From Pseudomonadota bacterium (GTDB lineage Bacteria > Pseudomonadota > Alphaproteobacteria > Rhizobiales > Beijerinckiaceae), in NCBI GenBank assembly GCA_023423995.1, contig JAFAEL010000284.1:1-29613 (forward strand): a stretch of DNA of 29,613 nucleotides. The letters run 5' to 3'. The position numbers were made by a program, and so were the translations under genes. Positions 147 to 28,119 of this stretch are shown in pieces. The notes under the pieces were generated by a model. That model saw nothing but the letters and a program-made list of their open reading frames with translations, was not told the DNA's origin and searched no databases. Numbering within the stretch: position 1 is the stretch's first letter; every line of letters begins with the position of its first letter.

Positions 147-785
147 TCAGTCGACCCCGTAGGCGCGCAGGAAGACCCCGAGCGCGGCCTCGACCTCGCG
201 CGAGATCTGCGCCGGGCTCGGCCCGGCCTCCACGCCGAAGATGGCGCGCTTGAACGACCGGGCCGAGCACATGCCGAGAAACTGCTCCGCCGCAACCTCC
301 GTGTCCTCGATGCGGAGCCGTCCTGCTGCCACCTGGGCATCCAGGTAGGCCTTCAGGCGACGCGCTCCGGTCCGCGGCCCGGCCTCGTAGAACGACTGCC
401 CGAAGCGGGGGAACTTGTCGGTCGCGCCGATCACCATCCGGATGGATGAGATGTGGTCCGGCTTCAGCATCGCCTCGAGGAAGCTGATGCCGAGGCGCCG
501 CAAGGCGGAGGCTACGTCGGGATCGTTCTCGTCCAGCCGGAAGACCGCCTCGGCCAGGCCGGCCTTCTCCTCCAGCGTCAACGCTTCGAAGAGCGCCTCC
601 TTCGAGTCGAAGTAGACGTAGAGCGTGCCCTTGGAGACGCGGGCGGCCTTGGCGATCTCGCCCATGCTGGCCCCATCGAAACCCGCGGACAGGAACACGC
701 GCCGCGCACCATCCAGGATCTGACGACGTTTGGCGCTATCCGCCGCAGGCAACTCGGAGGGCTTCTCTTGAAGGGTTGCGCTCAT
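147..785 (-). CDS. TetR/AcrR-family repressor, probable regulator of the adjacent efflux pair
   Basis: A 212-residue TetR-type protein. The N-terminal DNA-binding helices are clear: an RRQILDGARRVFLSAGFDG start, then a helix-turn-helix through SMGEIAKAARVSKGTLYVYF and SKEALF, roughly residues 20-68. The C-terminal two thirds is the ligand-binding and dimerisation domain, resembling the AefR-like group. Length is normal. A GTG at 788 lies directly before the ATG at 785; I take the ATG. The gene is divergent from the EmrA/EmrB-type genes, and a perfect palindrome (805-823) sits 19 bp upstream of this start. The expected role, by inference, is to repress both itself and the pump until a toxic ligand binds. 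The ligand cannot be read from sequence. Confidence 0.88.
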   Translation of the reverse strand: MSATLQEKPSELPAADSAKRRQILDGARRVFLSAGFDGASMGEIAKAARVSKGTLYVYFDSKEALFEALTLEEKAGLAEAVFRLDENDPDVASALRRLGISFLEAMLKPDHISSIRMVIGATDKFPRFGQSFYEAGPRTGARRLKAYLDAQVAAGRLRIEDTEVAAEQFLGMCSARSFKRAIFGVEAGPSPAQISREVEAALGVFLRAYGVD

Positions 786-804
786 CACATCCAGAGTGGC
801 TCAT

Positions 805-823
805 TGACCGAACCGTTCGGTCA
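805..823. promoter_or_regulatory. Perfect palindromic operator, probable TetR-type binding site
   Basis: TGACCGAACCGTTCGGTCA is a perfect inverted repeat: 9-bp arms around one central base. It lies in the intergenic space between the divergent tetR-type gene and the HlyD/EmrA-type gene. Palindromes with TGACC...GGTCA ends are typical of operators for AcrR/TetR repressors of efflux genes. That the neighbouring TetR protein binds it is inference from position and symmetry. Confidence 0.75.
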
Positions 824-900
824 GAATAAATGGGACCGGCCTTGCAGGTCAATCGGAGCCGTGTTGGCGACCTGTCGCGGGCTCGTGTCGGGAGTTCTTC

Positions 901-2112
901 ATGGTGCGGTCCGACGACCTTTCCTCGGCGGAGCGGGGCGGCCCCATGCGGGAGGCTCCGGATATGAGCAGAGCCGGCGCTCCGGTCCTCAAGGCAGAGA
1001 CCGGAATCGGCTCCGACGTCGCGCGGGCCGAGGCCAAGCCGGCCACACCCGCACCGCCGCCGAAGGGCTCCCGCAAGCGTGCCGTGCTTCTGGTGATCCT
1101 CGCGATCGCCCTGATGGCCGGCAGCTATTTCGGCTATGGCTGGTGGACGAACGGCCGTTTCTTCGTCTCGACCGACGACGCCTATGTCGGGGCGGACGTC
1201 ACGATCCTGGCGGCCAAGGCCTCGGGATACGTGACCGCGGTCGAGGTCGAGAACAACCAGACGGTGCAGGCGGGCCAGGTTATCGCCCGCATCGACGATG
1301 TCGACTACCGACTCGCCGTCAGGGCCGCGCAGGACAAGCTCGCCACGCAGAATGCATCCGTCGAGCGGATCGCGAGGCAGATCGAGGCCGCCGAGGCCCA
1401 GGTCCGACAGGCGGAGCCGCAGATCGCCGCCGCCCGAGCCGAGTCTGTCCGCGCCGCTGCCGATTACGACCGCCAGGCTCGCCTCTCCCAATCGGACTTC
1501 GCCTCTCGCGCTCGTCTCGAGCAGGCGCAGGCGGACCGCGACAGGGCGGCCGCCAACGTCCTGGCGGCCGAGGCCGGCTTCGCCGCCGCGCGGGCCAATG
1601 TGGACGTGCTGAAGGCTCAGAAGGACGAGGCCGATCGCGTCGCCGCCGAATACCGGACGGCCGTGGCGCGGGCGGAGCGCGATCTCTCCTTCGCCACCAT
1701 CCGGGCTCCCGTGACGGGCGTTCTGGGCAACCGGGCGGTCGAGGTGGGCGCTTATGTCCAGCCGGGGACGCGGCTGGCCGCGCTGATCCCGTTCGCGAGC
1801 GTTCGGGTCGATGCCAATTTCAAGGAGACCCAACTGGCCAGGATCCATCCGGGCCAGAGGGTCGAGTTCGAGGTGGATGCCTATCCGGACCGCCAGTTCG
1901 AGGGCAGGGTAGAAAGCATCTCACCCGCTTCCGGCTCGCAGTTCAGCCTTCTGCCGCCGGAGAACGCGACCGGCAACTTCACGAAGATCGTCCAGCGCGT
2001 TCCGGTCCGGATCAGGGTCGAGCAGGCCGATGATGCGGTGCTCCGCCCCGGCATGTCGGTCGTGGTCCACGTCGACACGCGCGCGCCGCGTACGGCCCAG
2101 GCCGCGAGGTAG
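901..2112 (+). CDS. emrA: HlyD/EmrA-family membrane fusion protein of a tripartite efflux pump
   Basis: A 403-residue periplasmic adaptor that links an inner-membrane exporter to an outer-membrane channel. After a basic, proline-rich cytoplasmic tail there is one membrane segment at about residues 59-80. Then follow the conserved STDDAYVGAD and the first lipoyl half (GYVTAVEVENNQTVQAGQVIARID, about 109-132), a long Ala/Gln/Arg-rich coiled-coil hairpin (about 135-265), the second lipoyl half (RAPVTGVLGNRAVEVGAYV) and a beta-barrel. The ATG at 901 has GGAG six bases upstream. An ATG at 964 also has a good GGAGG and would shorten only the cytoplasmic tail. The stop is 4 bp before the EmrB-type start, so the two are almost certainly one transcript under the palindrome at 805-823. 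The substrate is unknown. Confidence 0.9.
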   Translation: MVRSDDLSSAERGGPMREAPDMSRAGAPVLKAETGIGSDVARAEAKPATPAPPPKGSRKRAVLLVILAIALMAGSYFGYGWWTNGRFFVSTDDAYVGADVTILAAKASGYVTAVEVENNQTVQAGQVIARIDDVDYRLAVRAAQDKLATQNASVERIARQIEAAEAQVRQAEPQIAAARAESVRAAADYDRQARLSQSDFASRARLEQAQADRDRAAANVLAAEAGFAAARANVDVLKAQKDEADRVAAEYRTAVARAERDLSFATIRAPVTGVLGNRAVEVGAYVQPGTRLAALIPFASVRVDANFKETQLARIHPGQRVEFEVDAYPDRQFEGRVESISPASGSQFSLLPPENATGNFTKIVQRVPVRIRVEQADDAVLRPGMSVVVHVDTRAPRTAQAAR

Positions 2113-2116
2113 CGCC

Positions 2117-3703
2117 ATGGCGAGCGCAGCGCTCGCGACTCCCGCCGCCGCGCCGGCGGTGGCCGCACCAGCGGGTGAGGGCCGGAAGCTCTTCGCCTTC
2201 CTCTGCATGGTGTTCGGGATGTTCATGGCGATCCTGGACATCCAGATCGTCTCGGCGTCCCTGGCGGAGATCCAGGCCGGTATCTCCGCGTCGGCGGACG
2301 AGATCTCCTGGGTCCAGACGGCGTATCTGATCGCCGAGGTCATCATGATCCCGCTGTCGGGGACGCTGTCGCGCGTGTTGTCGACGCGCTGGATGTTCGT
2401 GATCTCCGCCGCCGGCTTCACCTTCATGAGCTTCCTCTGCGCGACGGCCTCGTCCATCGAGCAGATGATCGTCTACCGCGCCCTTCAGGGCTTCATTGGC
2501 GGGGGCATGATCCCGACCGTCTTTGCCTCCGCCTACACGATCTTCAGGCCCGAGCAGCGCAACGTGGTCACGCCGATCATCGGGCTCGTCGCGACCCTCG
2601 CTCCGACGATCGGGCCGACGGTCGGCGGCTATCTGACCGACCTCTTCTCCTGGCACTGGCTTTTCCTGGTCAACATCGTGCCGGGGATCTTCGTCACCGT
2701 GACGACCTACTTCCTGGTCGATTTCGACGAGCCGAACCTGGGCCTGTTCAAGAATTTCGATTGGACAGGGCTCGCCCTCATGGCGGCTTTCCTCGGCTGC
2801 CTCGAATTCGTCCTCGAGGAAGGCCCCATCAAGGACTGGTTCCAGGACGAGTACATCCTGATCGGGACGTTTGTTTGCGTCGGAGCCGGCCTCGGCTTCT
2901 TCTGGCGGATGTTCACGGCCAAGCAGCCGATCGTCGACCTCTTCGCCTTCACGAACCGCAATTTCGCGGCGGGCTGCGCCTTCAGCTTCGTGATGGGGAT
3001 TGGGCTCTACGGCCTAACCTATCTCTATCCGGTCTATCTCGGCCGGGTACGCGGCTACTCGGCCCTGCAGATCGGCGAGACGATGTTCGTCACGGGCATC
3101 TGCATGTTCCTCACCGCGCCGATCGTGGGGCGCCTGATGGGCAAGGTCGATCCCCGTGCCATGATGGCGGCAGGCTTCATCGGTTTCGGGCTTGGGACCT
3201 GGTGGGCGTCCTACATCACCAATGACTGGGACTTCTGGGAGCTCCTGATCCCGCAGGTTCTGCGCGGCGTGTCGCTCATGGTCTGCATGGTGCCGATCAA
3301 CAACATCGCGCTCGGAACGCTCTCGCCGGAGCGGATGAAGAATGCGTCGGGGCTGTTCAATCTGACACGCAATCTCGGCGGGGCCGTGGGGCTCGCCTTG
3401 ATCAACACGACCTTGAACGACCGCTGGGACCTTCACCTCACCCGGTTGCACGAGAAGGTGACCTGGAGCCGCGCCATCGCGAACGAGACGCTTCAGACGA
3501 TGACGGGCGCTTATGCGCGGCTCGGCTCCGATGCGAGTCTTGCCGGCCTCAGGACCGTCTCGAACATCGTTCGCCAGCAGGCGCTCGTCATGTCCTTCGG
3601 GGACGTCTTCCTCATCATGACATTCCTGTTCGGGTCGCTGGCCCTGCTCACGCCCTTCATCAAGCGTCCTAAGCTCGGAGCCGCCTCGGCCGACGCGCAT
3701 TGA
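2117..3703 (+). CDS. emrB: DHA2-family (EmrB/QacA type) drug:proton antiporter
   Basis: A 528-residue major facilitator protein, the right size for the 14-helix DHA2 family. The DHA2 motif D1 appears in the first helix (FMAILDIQIVSASLAEI). The antiporter motif C is present as GPTIGPTVGGYLTD-like residues after the fourth to fifth helices, and there is a conserved SWHWLFLVN segment. The protein would sit in the inner membrane and expel hydrophobic toxic compounds using the proton gradient, feeding them to the EmrA-type adaptor encoded just upstream. An earlier in-frame start exists inside emrA; I chose the ATG at 2117, which begins the usual Ala/Pro-rich cytoplasmic tail. No outer-membrane TolC-type gene is nearby, so the pump presumably borrows one from elsewhere. 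Confidence 0.93.
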   Translation: MASAALATPAAAPAVAAPAGEGRKLFAFLCMVFGMFMAILDIQIVSASLAEIQAGISASADEISWVQTAYLIAEVIMIPLSGTLSRVLSTRWMFVISAAGFTFMSFLCATASSIEQMIVYRALQGFIGGGMIPTVFASAYTIFRPEQRNVVTPIIGLVATLAPTIGPTVGGYLTDLFSWHWLFLVNIVPGIFVTVTTYFLVDFDEPNLGLFKNFDWTGLALMAAFLGCLEFVLEEGPIKDWFQDEYILIGTFVCVGAGLGFFWRMFTAKQPIVDLFAFTNRNFAAGCAFSFVMGIGLYGLTYLYPVYLGRVRGYSALQIGETMFVTGICMFLTAPIVGRLMGKVDPRAMMAAGFIGFGLGTWWASYITNDWDFWELLIPQVLRGVSLMVCMVPINNIALGTLSPERMKNASGLFNLTRNLGGAVGLALINTTLNDRWDLHLTRLHEKVTWSRAIANETLQTMTGAYARLGSDASLAGLRTVSNIVRQQALVMSFGDVFLIMTFLFGSLALLTPFIKRPKLGAASADAH

Positions 3704-23028: not shown

Positions 23029-23517
23029 ATGAAGCAGGCTTTCCGACTGGCTGCCCTGTGCGCCGCCTTCGCCGCTTTCCCCGCCGCGGGCCAGCAGCAG
23101 CCGGCGGCCCCCGAAAGCGAGCAGACGGTCGTGATGCGCAGCGTGCTCGAGGCGCTCAGAGCCAACACGGCAGCGCTCCAGCGGAACAGCCAGATGCTGG
23201 AGACGTTCTCCAACCGCCTGGAGCGTGTCGAGGCCGCGACCCGAAACGTGCCCCCGGCTATGGAGGGGTTAAGGACGGATATCATCGCCATTCGAGCAGG
23301 TCTCGACAGGCTCGTCACGGCGGCGAGTGGAAAGCGGCCTGCCGCCACCCTCCGCTTCTCGCCCTTCGCTTGCGGCAACGAGGCCGAGGCGAGCTGCGTC
23401 GTGAACGCCTGCAAATCGGTCGGCTACGGCAACGGGGTCGCGGTTTCGGTCAACCGGACGGGGACAGGCGCGAATGTCCGCCCGACCAGCGTCGCGGAAG
23501 CCACTTGCTACGAGTAA
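23029..23517 (+). CDS. Exported protein with coiled-coil segment, unknown function
   Basis: A 162-residue protein not recognised by family. A signal peptide covers about residues 1-21 (MKQAFRLAALCAAFAAFPAAG), followed by a Gln/Pro/Ala-rich stretch. Residues about 35-100 are predicted coiled coil (SVLEALRANTAALQRNSQM, NRLERVEAATR), like small periplasmic or lipoprotein trimers. The last part (about 108-162) is compact, with four cysteines (FACGNEAEASCVVNACKSVG and a final CYE) that could make two disulfides. AAAGGA five bases before ATG 23029 fits as a ribosome site. It is divergent from the PBP gene and about 250 bp upstream of the pruR-like gene; a hairpin at 23583-23606 probably separates the transcripts. 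Confidence 0.75.
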   Translation: MKQAFRLAALCAAFAAFPAAGQQQPAAPESEQTVVMRSVLEALRANTAALQRNSQMLETFSNRLERVEAATRNVPPAMEGLRTDIIAIRAGLDRLVTAASGKRPAATLRFSPFACGNEAEASCVVNACKSVGYGNGVAVSVNRTGTGANVRPTSVAEATCYE

Positions 23518-23606: not shown

Positions 23607-23766
23607 TATCGAGTGGGGTGCCCCGGCCGGGACGCTCCGGGGTCCCCGTCTGGAGTAAGGGCTCCCTGATCCTGAAACTTCGCGTCGACCGCTCCATTTC
23701 CAGCTTGAGAATGCACCATCCCTAAAGGAAATGCTCATACCTGAGATGTGGCACGCGCCACAGAGC

Positions 23767-24267
23767 ATGATGATACGTTCCTCGAAGATATTCCTTGCGC
23801 TGGCTGCGCTCTGCGCGGGCACATCGCAGGTCTTGCCGGTCCGTGCAGATAACGGAAAGCCTATCCTTATCGTGACGGGCAATGTAAATAACGGCAACGG
23901 GCCGGTCCGATTCAGTCTGTCGTCGCTTGAGATGCTCGGCGTCGTAGCGGTTGAAACGAAGACACCTTGGCACAATCAGAAGGTGCGTTTTGAAGGCGTG
24001 CCGATGTCTGTCCTCATGAAAGAGGTCGGCGCGAAGGGGAATGTTGTCGAGGCCCATGCGCTCAACGATTATTCCACGATGATCCCTGTCGAGGATTTCC
24101 GGAAGTTCAACGTCATTTTGGCGACCCGGAAGAATGGGATGCCTATGCCCGTCCGGGATAATGGGCCGCTGTTCATCATCTATCCTTATGACAGCGATCC
24201 CGACTTGCAGAGCCAGCGATACTACGGGCGTTCCGCCTGGCAGATCAAAGAGCTGAAGGTCAAGTAG
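23767..24267 (+). CDS. pruR: Periplasmic SUOX-fold pterin-binding-type protein, PruR-like
   Basis: A 166-residue exported protein of the 'oxidoreductase molybdopterin-binding' (sulfite-oxidase) fold. Signal peptide: MMIRSSKIFLALAALCAG onward, cleaved near VRA-DN. Mature blocks are ILIVTGNV, FSLSSLEMLGVVAVETKTPW, VRFEGVPMSVLMKEVG, ALNDYSTMIPVEDF, GPLFIIYPYD and a final YYGRSAWQIKELKVK. The mature protein has no cysteine, so it cannot ligate molybdenum as true sulfite oxidases do. It stops 3 bp before a GGDEF-EAL gene, exactly the arrangement of pruR-dcpA in Agrobacterium tumefaciens, where PruR binds a pterin in the periplasm and controls DcpA. ATG 23731 would be longer but spoil the signal peptide. 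It has notably low GC. Confidence 0.8.
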   Translation: MMIRSSKIFLALAALCAGTSQVLPVRADNGKPILIVTGNVNNGNGPVRFSLSSLEMLGVVAVETKTPWHNQKVRFEGVPMSVLMKEVGAKGNVVEAHALNDYSTMIPVEDFRKFNVILATRKNGMPMPVRDNGPLFIIYPYDSDPDLQSQRYYGRSAWQIKELKVK

Positions 24268-24270
24268 ATC

Positions 24271-26583
24271 TTGGTCCGGGAGCGTCTCAACACCCTTAGT
24301 GCTGTCAAGCTCGCGCTGCTTCTCGTTATCGCGGTCTTCGCGGGCTCGGCCGTCTATACGTCGCTCGTGATCGAGCAGCGCCAGACGGCGTTGCGGAACA
24401 CCGACCGCTATAACATCGCCCTTCTCGCGAGCCAGGGACCGGCCGAACTCGCACGCTTTCTGGAGCGGGTCAGTTCCTCCACCTGGTCGGGCAGCGACGT
24501 CGATGCCGATGAGATCGGCCTTCGGTTCGACATCCTCGTGAATCGCCTCGGCCTATGGCGCGACGGTGAGTTCGGGGCGTTTGCCGATGCCACGCCGGAA
24601 CGGCGGGAGACGTTGAGGCTGTTCGAGGAAGCAATCGCCGCCGGCGAGAGCCTCGCGGCCTCGCCCGGTGACATTGGCGCCCGGGCGACGTTGCGGCGCT
24701 TGTTCGTTCCCCTGGAAGACAGATTCGCTCGCTTGGCTGCGGAGGCACACCTTGTGAGCGCCGAGCAAGCCTCCAAGGATAAGAGCGAACTGCTCGGGCT
24801 GCATGAGATCTTCACCTGGCTCGCCATTGGGCTGATCTGCTGCGGTATCGCGCTCCTGGGTCTTGTGCTCTGGCACAACCGGCTTCTCTCGAAGACCCAT
24901 TCCCGGCTTCATGAGCTCACGGGGGATCTTCGACACGCGTCCGGCCAGCTCAATGCTGCAATGGACAACATGAGCCAGGGGCTCTGCATGGTCGATGCTG
25001 AGATCCGGCTGACGGTGTTCAACCGCCGCTTCCTGTCGCTTTTCGGGCTATCCAGGGCCGATGCGCCGCCCGGAGCTGCCCTGCCCGAGGTGCTCGCGCG
25101 ATCTCCCCTTCTGCGGGCGGATCAGGTCGGGCTGCAGAGTTCTGCGCTATGGCCCTCGCTTCTCAGTCTCGAGAACGGGGTCGTGCTCGCCGCGACCTAT
25201 CGGCCCCTCCCCGATGGTGGCTTCGTTGCCACTTACGAGGACATCACCGACCGCCGTCAGGCCGAGGCCAAGATCGCCCACATGGCCCATCACGACGCCC
25301 TGACGGAGTTACCGAACCGCGCGCTGTTCCTGGAGCGCCTCGACGCGGTGCTGGCGGGGCTTGAGGACAGCGAAAGGAGCTTCGCGGTCCTGTCGCTCGA
25401 TTTGGACCGCTTCAAGGAGGTGAATGACAGCCTTGGGCATATGGTCGGCGACCAGCTTCTCTGCGCAGTGGCGCGGCGGCTGCTCGAGTGCATCAGGCCG
25501 GGCGGGATGGTCGCCCGCTTTGGGGGCGACGAGTTCCTCATCCTCCAGCCGAGCGAGAACCAGCCTCGGGACAGCGAGGCTTTTGCGAGAAAGATCATCG
25601 AGGTCGTGAGCGCGCCTTACGACATCGATGGGCGGGAGATCCTGACGGCGGCCAGCATCGGCGTTTCGGTCGCACCGTTCGACGGCGTCGACTCGCACCA
25701 GCTGCTTAAGAATGCAGACCTTGCCCTCTACCGAGCCAAGGGGGAGGGGCGCGGAACCTACCGGTTCTTCGCTCCCGAGATGGACGCCGCCCTGCAGGCG
25801 CGCCGGTCGCTGGGGCAGGACCTGCGGCACGCGCTCGCCCACAACGAGCTCGACATCCACTACCAGCCGATCATCAACCTGAGGACGAACGAGATCGCGG
25901 GCTACGAGGCGCTGCTTCGCTGGACTCATCCCCAGCGCGGTCCGGTCTCGCCGGGCATCTTCATTCCGCTGGCGGAAGAGATCGGGGTGATCTCGGAACT
26001 CGGAAAATGGGTGCTGCGGCGGGCCTGCGAGGAGGCCGCGCGCTGGCCGGAACACATCCGGCTCGCCCTGAACCTCTCCCCCGTTCAGTTCCGTAGCCGC
26101 GACCTCGCGCCGACGGTCGCGGCCATCCTTGCGGCGACAGAGCTCCCGCCTCACCGCCTCGAGCTCGAGATCACCGAGACGGTGCTCTTGGACGAGAACG
26201 ATTCCACGCTCGCCATCCTGCACCAGCTGAGGGCGATGGGGACACGGATCGCGCTCGACGATTTCGGCACTGGGTTTTCCTCGCTAAGCTATCTGCGCGC
26301 CTTTCCCTTCGACAAGATCAAGATCGACCGCTCGTTCGTCCGGGATTCGGAACGGCCGGACTGCATCGCGATTATCCGTTCCGTCGCCTCCCTGGCTGCC
26401 AACCTGCACATGGCAACGACGGCGGAAGGGATCGAGACGGCAGAGCAACTCGATCGCGTCAGGAAGGTGGGCTGCACCGAAGGGCAGGGCTACTTCTTCG
26501 CGAGGCCCAAGCCCGCGCACGAACTCGTCCATTCTCCGGCCGGGCAGAAGACCGAGCCCCGAAGGCTCCGCCTTGTCGGTTAG
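24271..26583 (+). CDS. dcpA: Membrane GGDEF-EAL cyclic-di-GMP enzyme with periplasmic and PAS domains, DcpA-like
   Basis: A 770-residue bifunctional candidate. Membrane helices at about 12-34 and 180-201 enclose a periplasmic domain of about 145 residues, suited to meeting the PruR-like protein. A PAS-like segment (about 226-325) follows, then GGDEF (GGDEF at 418-422, catalytic motif intact) and EAL (E546AL, NLSPVQF, EITE, DDFGTG at 663-668, KIKID, EGIE). The phosphodiesterase motifs are complete. The product-inhibition site, normally RxxD nine residues before GGDEF, reads RPGG (409-412), so it is lost. The start is TTG 24271, 3 bp after the pruR-like stop; no better start exists. Likely output, by analogy with Agrobacterium DcpA, is attachment and biofilm control. 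Confidence 0.88.
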   Translation: MVRERLNTLSAVKLALLLVIAVFAGSAVYTSLVIEQRQTALRNTDRYNIALLASQGPAELARFLERVSSSTWSGSDVDADEIGLRFDILVNRLGLWRDGEFGAFADATPERRETLRLFEEAIAAGESLAASPGDIGARATLRRLFVPLEDRFARLAAEAHLVSAEQASKDKSELLGLHEIFTWLAIGLICCGIALLGLVLWHNRLLSKTHSRLHELTGDLRHASGQLNAAMDNMSQGLCMVDAEIRLTVFNRRFLSLFGLSRADAPPGAALPEVLARSPLLRADQVGLQSSALWPSLLSLENGVVLAATYRPLPDGGFVATYEDITDRRQAEAKIAHMAHHDALTELPNRALFLERLDAVLAGLEDSERSFAVLSLDLDRFKEVNDSLGHMVGDQLLCAVARRLLECIRPGGMVARFGGDEFLILQPSENQPRDSEAFARKIIEVVSAPYDIDGREILTAASIGVSVAPFDGVDSHQLLKNADLALYRAKGEGRGTYRFFAPEMDAALQARRSLGQDLRHALAHNELDIHYQPIINLRTNEIAGYEALLRWTHPQRGPVSPGIFIPLAEEIGVISELGKWVLRRACEEAARWPEHIRLALNLSPVQFRSRDLAPTVAAILAATELPPHRLELEITETVLLDENDSTLAILHQLRAMGTRIALDDFGTGFSSLSYLRAFPFDKIKIDRSFVRDSERPDCIAIIRSVASLAANLHMATTAEGIETAEQLDRVRKVGCTEGQGYFFARPKPAHELVHSPAGQKTEPRRLRLVG

Positions 26584-27101
26584 GCTGTGTGCTCGGTCCC
26601 GTCGGGCATGGCGAAAGCCTCAATGACGAGCTTCCTGAGTCGGGCGATCGGCACGGCTCCGTCCCGCGTATGCTCGCGCGCGCGCCTCTCAAGCCAGAGG
26701 AGGGCGTCGATGGTCAGGGGGGCTCCGCCGCAGGCAGGCCTTCCGTGCTCATCCTCCTCGTAGAGAACGCCGAAGATGCCGAGCTTCTCTCCGGCCCCAT
26801 CCCACAGGAGAAAGGCATGAGCCCGCACGGTCACGATGGTGCCGTCGGGCTGGACGTAGCGCTTGCTGAAGGAGCAGGGCTCCCGCGTGCTGATGATGGC
26901 CGGCAGCCGCTTGCGGTTTTCTTCAAAATCTGCGGCTAGGATAAAATCGAAGGGCGTGCGGCCGATGATTTCGCCCGCATCCCGGCCAAGCAGGCCTGAA
27001 TATCCTGCATCCGCATAAGAAATTATCCCACTCAGGTCGAAGCAAGCAACTCCGAAAACCGGCGCTGCGGAACCGCGTCCGGCCTTCCGAGCCTCTGCCA
27101 C
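26580..27101 (-). CDS. Single PAS-domain protein
   Basis: A 173-residue soluble protein. Residues about 15-118 form a PAS domain (VFGVACFDLSGIISYADAG, LLGRDAGEIIGRTPFDFI, RYVQPDGTIVTVRAHAF, LGIFGVLYEED). The rest is a helical tail (LTIDALLWLERRAREHTRDG and a final helix) with no kinase, GGDEF or DNA-binding domain. It probably works as a sensory partner in trans, the partner being unknown. The start GTG 27101 has GAGGAGG seven to eight bases upstream. Its stop overlaps the end of the dcpA-like gene by 4 bp, tail to tail. It lies 97 bp downstream of oxyR on the same strand, so read-through is possible. Confidence 0.78.
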   Translation of the reverse strand: MAEARKAGRGSAAPVFGVACFDLSGIISYADAGYSGLLGRDAGEIIGRTPFDFILAADFEENRKRLPAIISTREPCSFSKRYVQPDGTIVTVRAHAFLLWDGAGEKLGIFGVLYEEDEHGRPACGGAPLTIDALLWLERRAREHTRDGAVPIARLRKLVIEAFAMPDGTEHTA

Positions 27102-27198: not shown

Positions 27199-28119
27199 TC
27201 AATGCGCCGCGTGTGCTCTTGTCCCAGCAGGTGCGCTGTCACGAAAGAAGGTAGCCAGCCGGACAAGGCTCGCCCGCCGCGGATCCGTCGCTCGCCAGGC
27301 CAGCGCGACGGTGCGGACCGGGCCATGCTCTCCGAATGGGCGCGAGACGACGAGGCCGGTCGCGTCCGGTCCCTCGTCCGCGGCAAGCCGCGGCATCAGC
27401 GTATAGCCAGCCCCGGCGGCAACCATCGAGCGAAGCGTCTCGAGACTCGTGGCGTGGCGCCCGGCGTGCGGCCCTGCCGCGCAGGCAGCCAACGCCTGGT
27501 CGCGCAGGCAATTCCCCTCTTCGAGCAGCAGGAGCTCCGGGCCGGAGAGCGTCTCTGGGTCAATTTGTGGCGCGAGCGCGAGGGGATGGTCGGTCGGGCA
27601 GGAGAGTAGGAAGGGCTCCTCGAAGAGCGGGAGGACCGTGAGACCGGTCTCGTCGACGGGAGGGGAGAGCAAGACGGCATCGAGCCGGCCTTCGCGCAGG
27701 CCGTCCAAAAGCTCGGCCGTCCTGCCTTCGCTCAAGGTGAGGACGAGCTCGGGAAAGCTCTGCCGCAGGGAGCGGAGAACGCGGGGAAAGAGGTAGGGCC
27801 CGAGCGTCTGGATTGCGCCGAGGGCAAGCCTGCCGGCGAGCGTGTCGGCGCCTTCCTGCGCGATGACGAGAAGCTTCTGCGCCTCGGCCAGCACGGCGCG
27901 GGCTTGCCGGGCCACGGCCTCCCCCCGGGCAGTCGGGAGGACCCGGCGGCTCGTTCGTTCGAACAGCGTTAGGCCGAGTGCCTCTTCGAGCCGCCGAATC
28001 TGTGCGGAAAGGGACGGCTGGCTGACATTGCACCGCTCTGCCGCACGTCCGAAGTGGCGCTCCTCGGTGACGGCCACCACATACTCGAGATCGCGGAGTG
28101 AGAGCGCGGCGACATTCAT
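27199..28119 (-). CDS. oxyR: OxyR, hydrogen-peroxide-sensing LysR-family regulator
   Basis: A 306-residue LysR protein. The N-terminal helix-turn-helix is clear ([36 protein letters not shown]). The regulatory domain holds the redox pair of OxyR, Cys204 and Cys213 in [14 protein letters not shown], with the same nine-residue spacing as E. coli Cys199-Cys208. Peroxide would oxidise Cys204, form the disulfide and turn on target genes. The gene is divergent from a catalase gene, the classic OxyR arrangement. The start ATG 28119 is typical; an OxyR-type ATAG-N7-CTAT motif overlaps this start codon, suggesting autoregulation. LysR members other than OxyR rarely keep this CLRDQ motif, so the identity is firm. 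Confidence 0.93.

Follow-up and report, generated by a model that had tools for sequence, protein, structure and literature searches.

The Gene Pair and the PruR Protein

The stretch of DNA analysed here, 29,613 nucleotides of contig JAFAEL010000284.1 from an alphaproteobacterium of the family Beijerinckiaceae (from here on the window), carries at 23767..26583 two open reading frames (ORFs) separated by 3 bp, and the coordinates given for them in an earlier note on this DNA match the ORF analysis. The first, pruR, encodes a small, putatively exported protein and the second, directly downstream, a membrane-bound DcpA-type regulator with GGDEF and EAL domains; very probably the two form a PruR/DcpA-type signalling pair, in which pterin binding by PruR and docking of PruR on the regulator are predicted. 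The gene layout, the homology of the partners to PruR and to DcpA-type proteins, the residues of the pterin site and the intact output motifs were observed directly at this locus. The first gene has the following features:

23767..24267, forward strand: pruR, a PruR-family protein predicted to be exported and to bind a pterin, 166 amino acids, SUOX fold without the Mo-ligating Cys
23767..23844, forward strand: putative signal peptide, residues 1-26, recognized by eye (basic N-terminus, hydrophobic core, VRA preceding D27)

The start of pruR is ambiguous (23731, 23767 or 23770), the frame being open already from the ATG at 23731. The length of the protein and its N-terminal secretion signal, the latter judged by eye, fit PruR (about 170 amino acids). 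When the earlier note called the protein cysteine-free and exported, this was correct for the mature part, which has no Cys, but not for the precursor, which has one at residue 16 within the putative signal peptide. Pfam assigned the protein to Oxidored_molyb (33.1 bits, cut-off 24); no NCBIfam family matched at E 0.1.

A homology search had been named beforehand in the earlier note as a test that could refute its reading, and its outcome sided with that reading: the solved PruR proteins came out best (E 1e-49 to 6e-20). The four best entries of the Protein Data Bank (PDB) were 7kos/7kou (E 1.4e-49), 7rkb (5.7e-46), 7kom (3.3e-21) and 7kp2 (6.1e-20), after which the next match was not below E 0.08; 7kos is the PruR of Agrobacterium and 7kp2 that of Vibrio cholerae (PMC13259868). 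The window protein carries Asn100, Tyr102 and Trp158 at the pterin site, corresponding to Asn102, Tyr104 and Trp160 in Agrobacterium (PMC13259868). Among 200 other aligned PruR sequences (those of 80 related loci plus 120 listed of 128 homologues; 201 with the window) the Tyr and the Trp are present in all 200 and the Asn in 198. Residue 126 is Tyr in 140 of the 201 sequences and Pro in 40, the window among these. All sequence tests made class the first protein as PruR.

The Pfam match, and the annotation of several related proteins as molybdopterin-dependent oxidoreductases, could be taken to mean that the exported protein is a molybdenum-cofactor (Moco) enzyme or assists such an enzyme, its neighbour being incidental. 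We regard this as extremely improbable: the mature protein is without Cys, from which the earlier note had rightly argued against an enzyme, no Moco enzyme is found among the PDB matches up to E 1, and a DcpA-type partner is present in 80 of 80 related loci. The Mo ligand is also missing from PruR as described in the literature (PMC13259868).

The G+C content of pruR is 0.549 vs 0.652 for dcpA. Likewise, pruR lies below its own locus and its own dcpA in every one of the 15 related loci that were sampled, so that horizontal transfer of pruR is unsupported by its low G+C; the gap in the window exceeds that in all 15 (largest there 0.080), however, so that transfer may still have taken place. A scan for promoters and terminators around pruR found none.

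The DcpA-Type Regulator

The second gene is made up as follows:

24271..26583, forward strand: dcpA-type regulator, 770 amino acids, TTG start; PAS_7, GGDEF and EAL by Pfam
24271..24945, forward strand: membrane and periplasmic part, residues 1-225, a helical bundle between two membrane segments recognized by eye
24421..24447, forward strand: site of the signature WX7E (residues 51-59), reading LLASQGPAE; Trp51 replaced by Leu, Glu59 kept
24964..25266, forward strand: PAS_7, residues 232-332 (Pfam E 2.6e-19)
25285..25755, forward strand: GGDEF domain, residues 339-495 (Pfam 150.6 bits), GGDEF intact
25816..26508, forward strand: EAL domain, residues 516-746 (Pfam 252.6 bits)

The order of parts is transmembrane segment, periplasmic domain, transmembrane segment, PAS, GGDEF and EAL. 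AlphaFold2 predicts residues 1-225 to be all helical (mean predicted local distance difference test, pLDDT, 91.1; predicted template modelling score, pTM, 0.74). The periplasmic domain matches a DcpA-type profile built from 50 related loci, the window excluded, with E 7e-66, the regulator being the only match of this profile among the window ORFs of at least 60 residues; in a two-sequence search against the domain of one Agrobacterium locus (L016) alone the E value was 1.4e-28. Pfam and the profile uphold the earlier description as a membrane GGDEF-EAL protein with a periplasmic domain, which had left the PAS domain (232-332) and the exchange of Trp for Leu unmentioned.

In the GGDEF domain one position reads RPGG, which we take to be the inhibitory site (I-site), and the EAL domain contains EALLRW, LNLSP, ELEITE, DDFGTG, DKIKID, AEGIET and GQGY, presumably the catalytic set. 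Pfam finds no kinase domain in the regulator, whose output is GGDEF-EAL. The best full-length relative among 397 genomes of the order has 48% identity. Public contigs hold relatives with 98% identity to PruR (P0003) and to the regulator (P0123), which indicates that both reading frames have been kept.

Distribution of the Pair

A scan of genome contigs yielded at least 570 confirmed PruR relatives, of which the best 80 loci were retained. Within the stretch fetched the DcpA-type domain was found in all 80, twice in broken pieces (L032, L051), so that the layout is far from chance. GGDEF and EAL motifs stand in one frame in 70 of these loci, and in 2 the partner is a histidine kinase by motif. 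In L001 and L029 the regulator lies on the other side of pruR on the opposite strand. When 30 shorter loci were examined as a further set, 26 had the domain; two of the four loci without it belong to the genomes of L001 and L029. A PruR match was obtained in 60 of the 298 genomes sampled from one family, with at best 57% identity to the window protein. A 2026 review gives the set of such pairs as over 5500 unique sequences (PMC13259868), and the pair in the window is an ordinary member of this large and known group, apart from the change in its signature.

Two irregular arrangements were seen among the relatives. In Microvirga arvi (L026, 3702-5041) the genes pruR and dcpA, elsewhere closely spaced, are about 1.3 kb apart, apparently through an insertion, and in two Brucella records (L032, L051) the dcpA frame is in pieces beside a full-length pruR, which is either real or an assembly error.

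When 25,000 of the 29,613 bases were compared with a plasmid collection, 287 records had short matches (194 of them Escherichia); among the 15 records listed were Microvirga and Methylobacterium with about 80% identity over about 1.3 kb, which makes a kinship to these genera plausible, although no close genome was found.

The system from Agrobacterium tumefaciens (PMC13259868, 7KOS) is like that of the window in that a SUOX-fold exported protein without the Mo-ligating Cys is encoded directly upstream of a DcpA-type GGDEF-EAL protein. Relative to L016 the window PruR has 54.7% identity (161 residues), with the pterin-site residues kept, and the membrane and periplasmic part of the regulator 31.6%. 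The regulator is longer, 770 amino acids through PAS_7 vs 644-658 in the Agrobacterium loci, which were compared by length only. In this it resembles the longer DcpA homologues (785-827 amino acids) of some Microvirga, Bradyrhizobium, Bosea and Chelatococcus loci, and the proteins P0124, P0125 and P0127 have the same PAS_7-GGDEF-EAL order.

PruR-DTB systems, in which PruR is combined with a histidine kinase that has a DcpA-type domain, share the types of PruR and of periplasmic domain with the window. One such kinase, P0126, matches the first 225 residues of the window regulator, which has GGDEF-EAL as output instead of the kinase. The DcpA of Mycobacterium smegmatis, a GDP sensor with a GAF domain, has only the name and the role in cyclic di-GMP (c-di-GMP) metabolism in common with the protein discussed here, as far as the available part of PMC8846402 goes.

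The Changed Signature and the Predicted Contact

Four findings may be set against the reading as a PruR/DcpA-type signalling pair. The first is the Leu at the Trp position of WX7E, in which the window differs from Agrobacterium. In the 80 related loci this position is Trp in 77, Phe in one (L050, Chelatococcus albus) and unreadable in two (L032 and L051, with broken frames: a gap and R); a further 26 loci, some of them from genomes already counted, have Trp in 25 cases and Phe in one (L126, same genome as L050); and in 9 of 9 additional sequences it is Trp. The longer homologues also keep the Trp, except L050. The 98% relative P0123 has Phe. The residues were read from the alignment; a second protein search scored 7999 candidates and found 5 proteins, which says little on how often the Trp is lost. 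The motif is reported to be conserved in "the vast majority" of pairs (PMC13259868) and is thus typical rather than obligatory, so that loss of the Trp is a rare variant and does not exclude the regulator from the group. From its sequence we class it as a Trp-less variant, a non-canonical DcpA. One of the 26 further loci (L141, genome G049) shows the reverse, the Trp being kept and the Glu position occupied by Ser.

The second finding, and another difference from Agrobacterium, is Asn in place of Lys132 of PruR, a residue that is Lys in 193 of the 201 sequences and in 80 of the 80 loci; in the window lineage Asp50 and Arg51 have changed alongside it. The third comes from a structure prediction of the tandem as a single chain, in which the intergenic stop was read as Gly and the alignment comprised 16 paired and 42 unpaired rows besides the window: the parts fold well (pLDDT 90.8) and the pTM is 0.58, without confident docking. 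Docking can therefore not be claimed from this model, which neither supports nor refutes a contact. The fourth is that the window, with 23.7 kb ahead of pruR and 3 kb beyond dcpA, contains no gene of FolE or PTPS type (see below), whereas about half of the relatives have one nearby.

An alternative that draws on these points is a pair that is decaying or uncoupled, in which PruR may still bind a pterin and the regulator, having lost the docking Trp, runs on its PAS domain or constitutively. In its favour are the changes at Trp51, Lys132, Asp50 and Arg51 within one lineage, the tandem model without confident docking and the absence of the FolE and PTPS types searched. On the other hand, the regulator retains the conserved residues around Trp51 (Glu59, Tyr47, Asn48, Gln55 and Arg62) and PruR those of the pterin site; neither reading frame is broken, be it in the window or in the 98% relatives; in Chelatococcus (L050), another genus, Phe stands in for the Trp and the pair is intact; and that docking needs the Trp is itself an assumption. 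We consider uncoupling improbable and a PruR/DcpA-type signalling pair by far the better account, the changed Trp and Lys leaving room for a contact that is weaker, different or lost.

Proposed Mechanism

In the mechanism that we propose, PruR would be secreted into the periplasm, where it would bind a small reduced pterin rather than act as a molybdenum enzyme. It would then dock on the periplasmic helical domain of the regulator, and the membrane helices would relay the resulting change via the PAS domain to the tandem GGDEF-EAL module. This module would shift between making and breaking c-di-GMP, and the cells hence between attachment and motility. For pterin binding, for docking and for the sign of the response we rely on analogy with the work on Agrobacterium as told in the available part of PMC13259868. 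Because the lineage differs at Trp51 of DcpA (Leu) and at Lys132 of PruR (Asn), the strength, or the preference for a ligand, may have changed.

The pterin bound in vivo is described as unclear, and multiple bacteria are said to have PruR and DcpA without a pteridine reductase (PMC13259868). With the Agrobacterium enzyme as query, a relative of the pteridine reductase PruA was found in 11 of 14 related genomes (those of 15 loci submitted minus L062), with 100% identity in Agrobacterium and at best 41-52% in the other ten. None was found at E 1e-25 in G006 (lichen metagenome-assembled genome, MAG; L025), G009 (Lichenibacterium minor, L029) and G011 (MAG, L001), absences from MAGs being weak evidence. 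PruA-like short-chain dehydrogenases/reductases, sought with E. coli FolM and a motif check of the matches, were present in 9 of 12 genomes.

FolE and PTPS Genes beside pruR-dcpA

In L001 and L029 a FolE (GTP cyclohydrolase I, PF01227) and a PTPS-family protein (PF01242) are encoded between the regulator and pruR on the strand of the regulator; the Pfam assignment was made for L029. With these proteins and the shorter PTPS type of L010 the 80 loci and the window were searched at E 1e-15. Within the flanks fetched a PTPS-family gene was found in 39 of the 80 loci, 18 having type A and 21 type B; FolE is present as well in 19 of the 39.

Going by record titles, they comprise 20 of 21 Microvirga loci, 5 of 5 Bradyrhizobium loci and, among others, single loci of Bosea, Chelatococcus, Lichenibacterium, Aminobacter and Roseomonas, and include L001, L025, L029, L036, L061, L062, L064, L066, L068 and L076. 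Many of the longer DcpA homologues adjoin FolE/PTPS-type genes, unlike that of the window. No linked PTPS gene was found in any of the loci of Agrobacterium (12), Brucella (7), Phyllobacterium (5), Rhizobium (5), Ochrobactrum (4), other Rhizobiales (4), Enterobacter (2) and Hoeflea (1); some loci have short flanks.

The arrangement differs between the genera. In 11 loci folE and pruR are arranged head to head, with folE at most about 260 bp away from the open frame of pruR. In Microvirga a short PTPS is encoded 2.1-2.9 kb past pruR, i.e., after dcpA, in 17 of the 21 loci, and in Bradyrhizobium folE and the PTPS gene both occupy the other strand, at a distance of 3.2-3.8 kb past pruR. In Chelatococcus albus (L050) the PTPS gene was seen 76 bp from the pruR frame.

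Since 16 related genomes (3.2-7.4 Mb) have 1-4 PTPS genes each, at most about 2% of such loci would have one by chance; the loci are mutually related, so that the 39 are not 39 independent events. The PTPS gene beside pruR is the only PTPS match of the genome in G001, G004, G005, G006, G008, G009 and G011, and the same holds for the FolE match in G004, G006, G009 and G011. Because in these four genomes the linked FolE is the sole one and FolE2 was found in none of the 16, it may also serve the synthesis of folate.

Motifs were compared in 8 FolE and 18 PTPS rows. The FolE copies share Cys-x-His-His and His-x-Cys with the E. coli enzyme. In PTPS type A the Cys, the Asp-His and the Glu are preserved, with HGH changed to HGY (HGC in L069, a broken copy) and in L062 a further deviation at the first His. 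PTPS type B keeps HGH and has neither the Cys nor the Glu (L074 is a fragment). The roles of these residues are assumed by us. None of the seven FolE and PTPS proteins tested reached the cut-off that NCBIfam sets for FolE or QueD, and their products are therefore not assignable. In the pepteridine cluster of Photorhabdus the combination of FolE, PTPS and a pteridine reductase supports a tetrahydropterin substrate (PMC5384830).

From this neighbourhood one may ask whether the ligand of PruR in this host is a tetrahydropterin or another pterin from a FolE/PTPS-type branch instead of the product of PruA. The linkage in 39 of 80 loci speaks for it, as do G006, G009 and G011, which lack a PruA match and in which the flanking FolE and PTPS are the only such matches of the genome. 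In the window itself neither gene is present; 10 of the 14 genomes have a PruA match plus a linked PTPS, which indicates that PruA is not simply substituted by the linked genes; each linked PTPS type lacks some canonical residues; and where the linked FolE is the sole copy it could work for folate. Such a ligand is possible, though on balance doubtful.

We tentatively suggest, as a reading with less than an even chance, that in many alphaproteobacteria the pair is part of a module with its own pterin supply, in which a divergent FolE and a PTPS-family enzyme could yield a tetrahydropterin signal without PruA. In the lineage of the window this arm would have disappeared or been relocated; with conserved residues altered in PruR and in the regulator, the pair may read a different pterin or have a re-tuned contact.

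The FolE/PTPS neighbourhood is absent from the main text of PMC13259868, and no other paper on it came up among the literature listed; the words "pyruvoyl", "QueD" and "neighborhood" do not occur in that review. The primary papers on PruR and DcpA lay outside this comparison, for which reason we do not claim the neighbourhood to be unpublished.

Surroundings of the Pair

Convergent with dcpA and overlapping its end by 4 bp, a PAS-only protein of 173 amino acids is encoded at 26580-27101 on the reverse strand, followed by a LysR-family regulator at 27199-28119 (reverse strand) that is OxyR-like by eye. Upstream of pruR, at 23029-23517 on the forward strand, there is a small protein with a signal-like start and no Pfam match. 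Farther away, at 147-3703, a TetR regulator is divergent from an HlyD/MFS efflux pair. Neither an Rfam family at gathering score nor a tRNA was found in the window.

Significance

The PruR-DcpA kind of system is already published, and the Trp-less pair is a variant of it. Natural partners without the Trp, as in Chelatococcus (L050) and in the lineage of the window, can be used to find out what WX7E does. The FolE and PTPS genes linked to about half of the related loci are named candidate enzymes for the missing source of the signal. This lead from the neighbourhood weighs more than the pair itself, which is one slightly aberrant case of a published pterin-to-c-di-GMP system.

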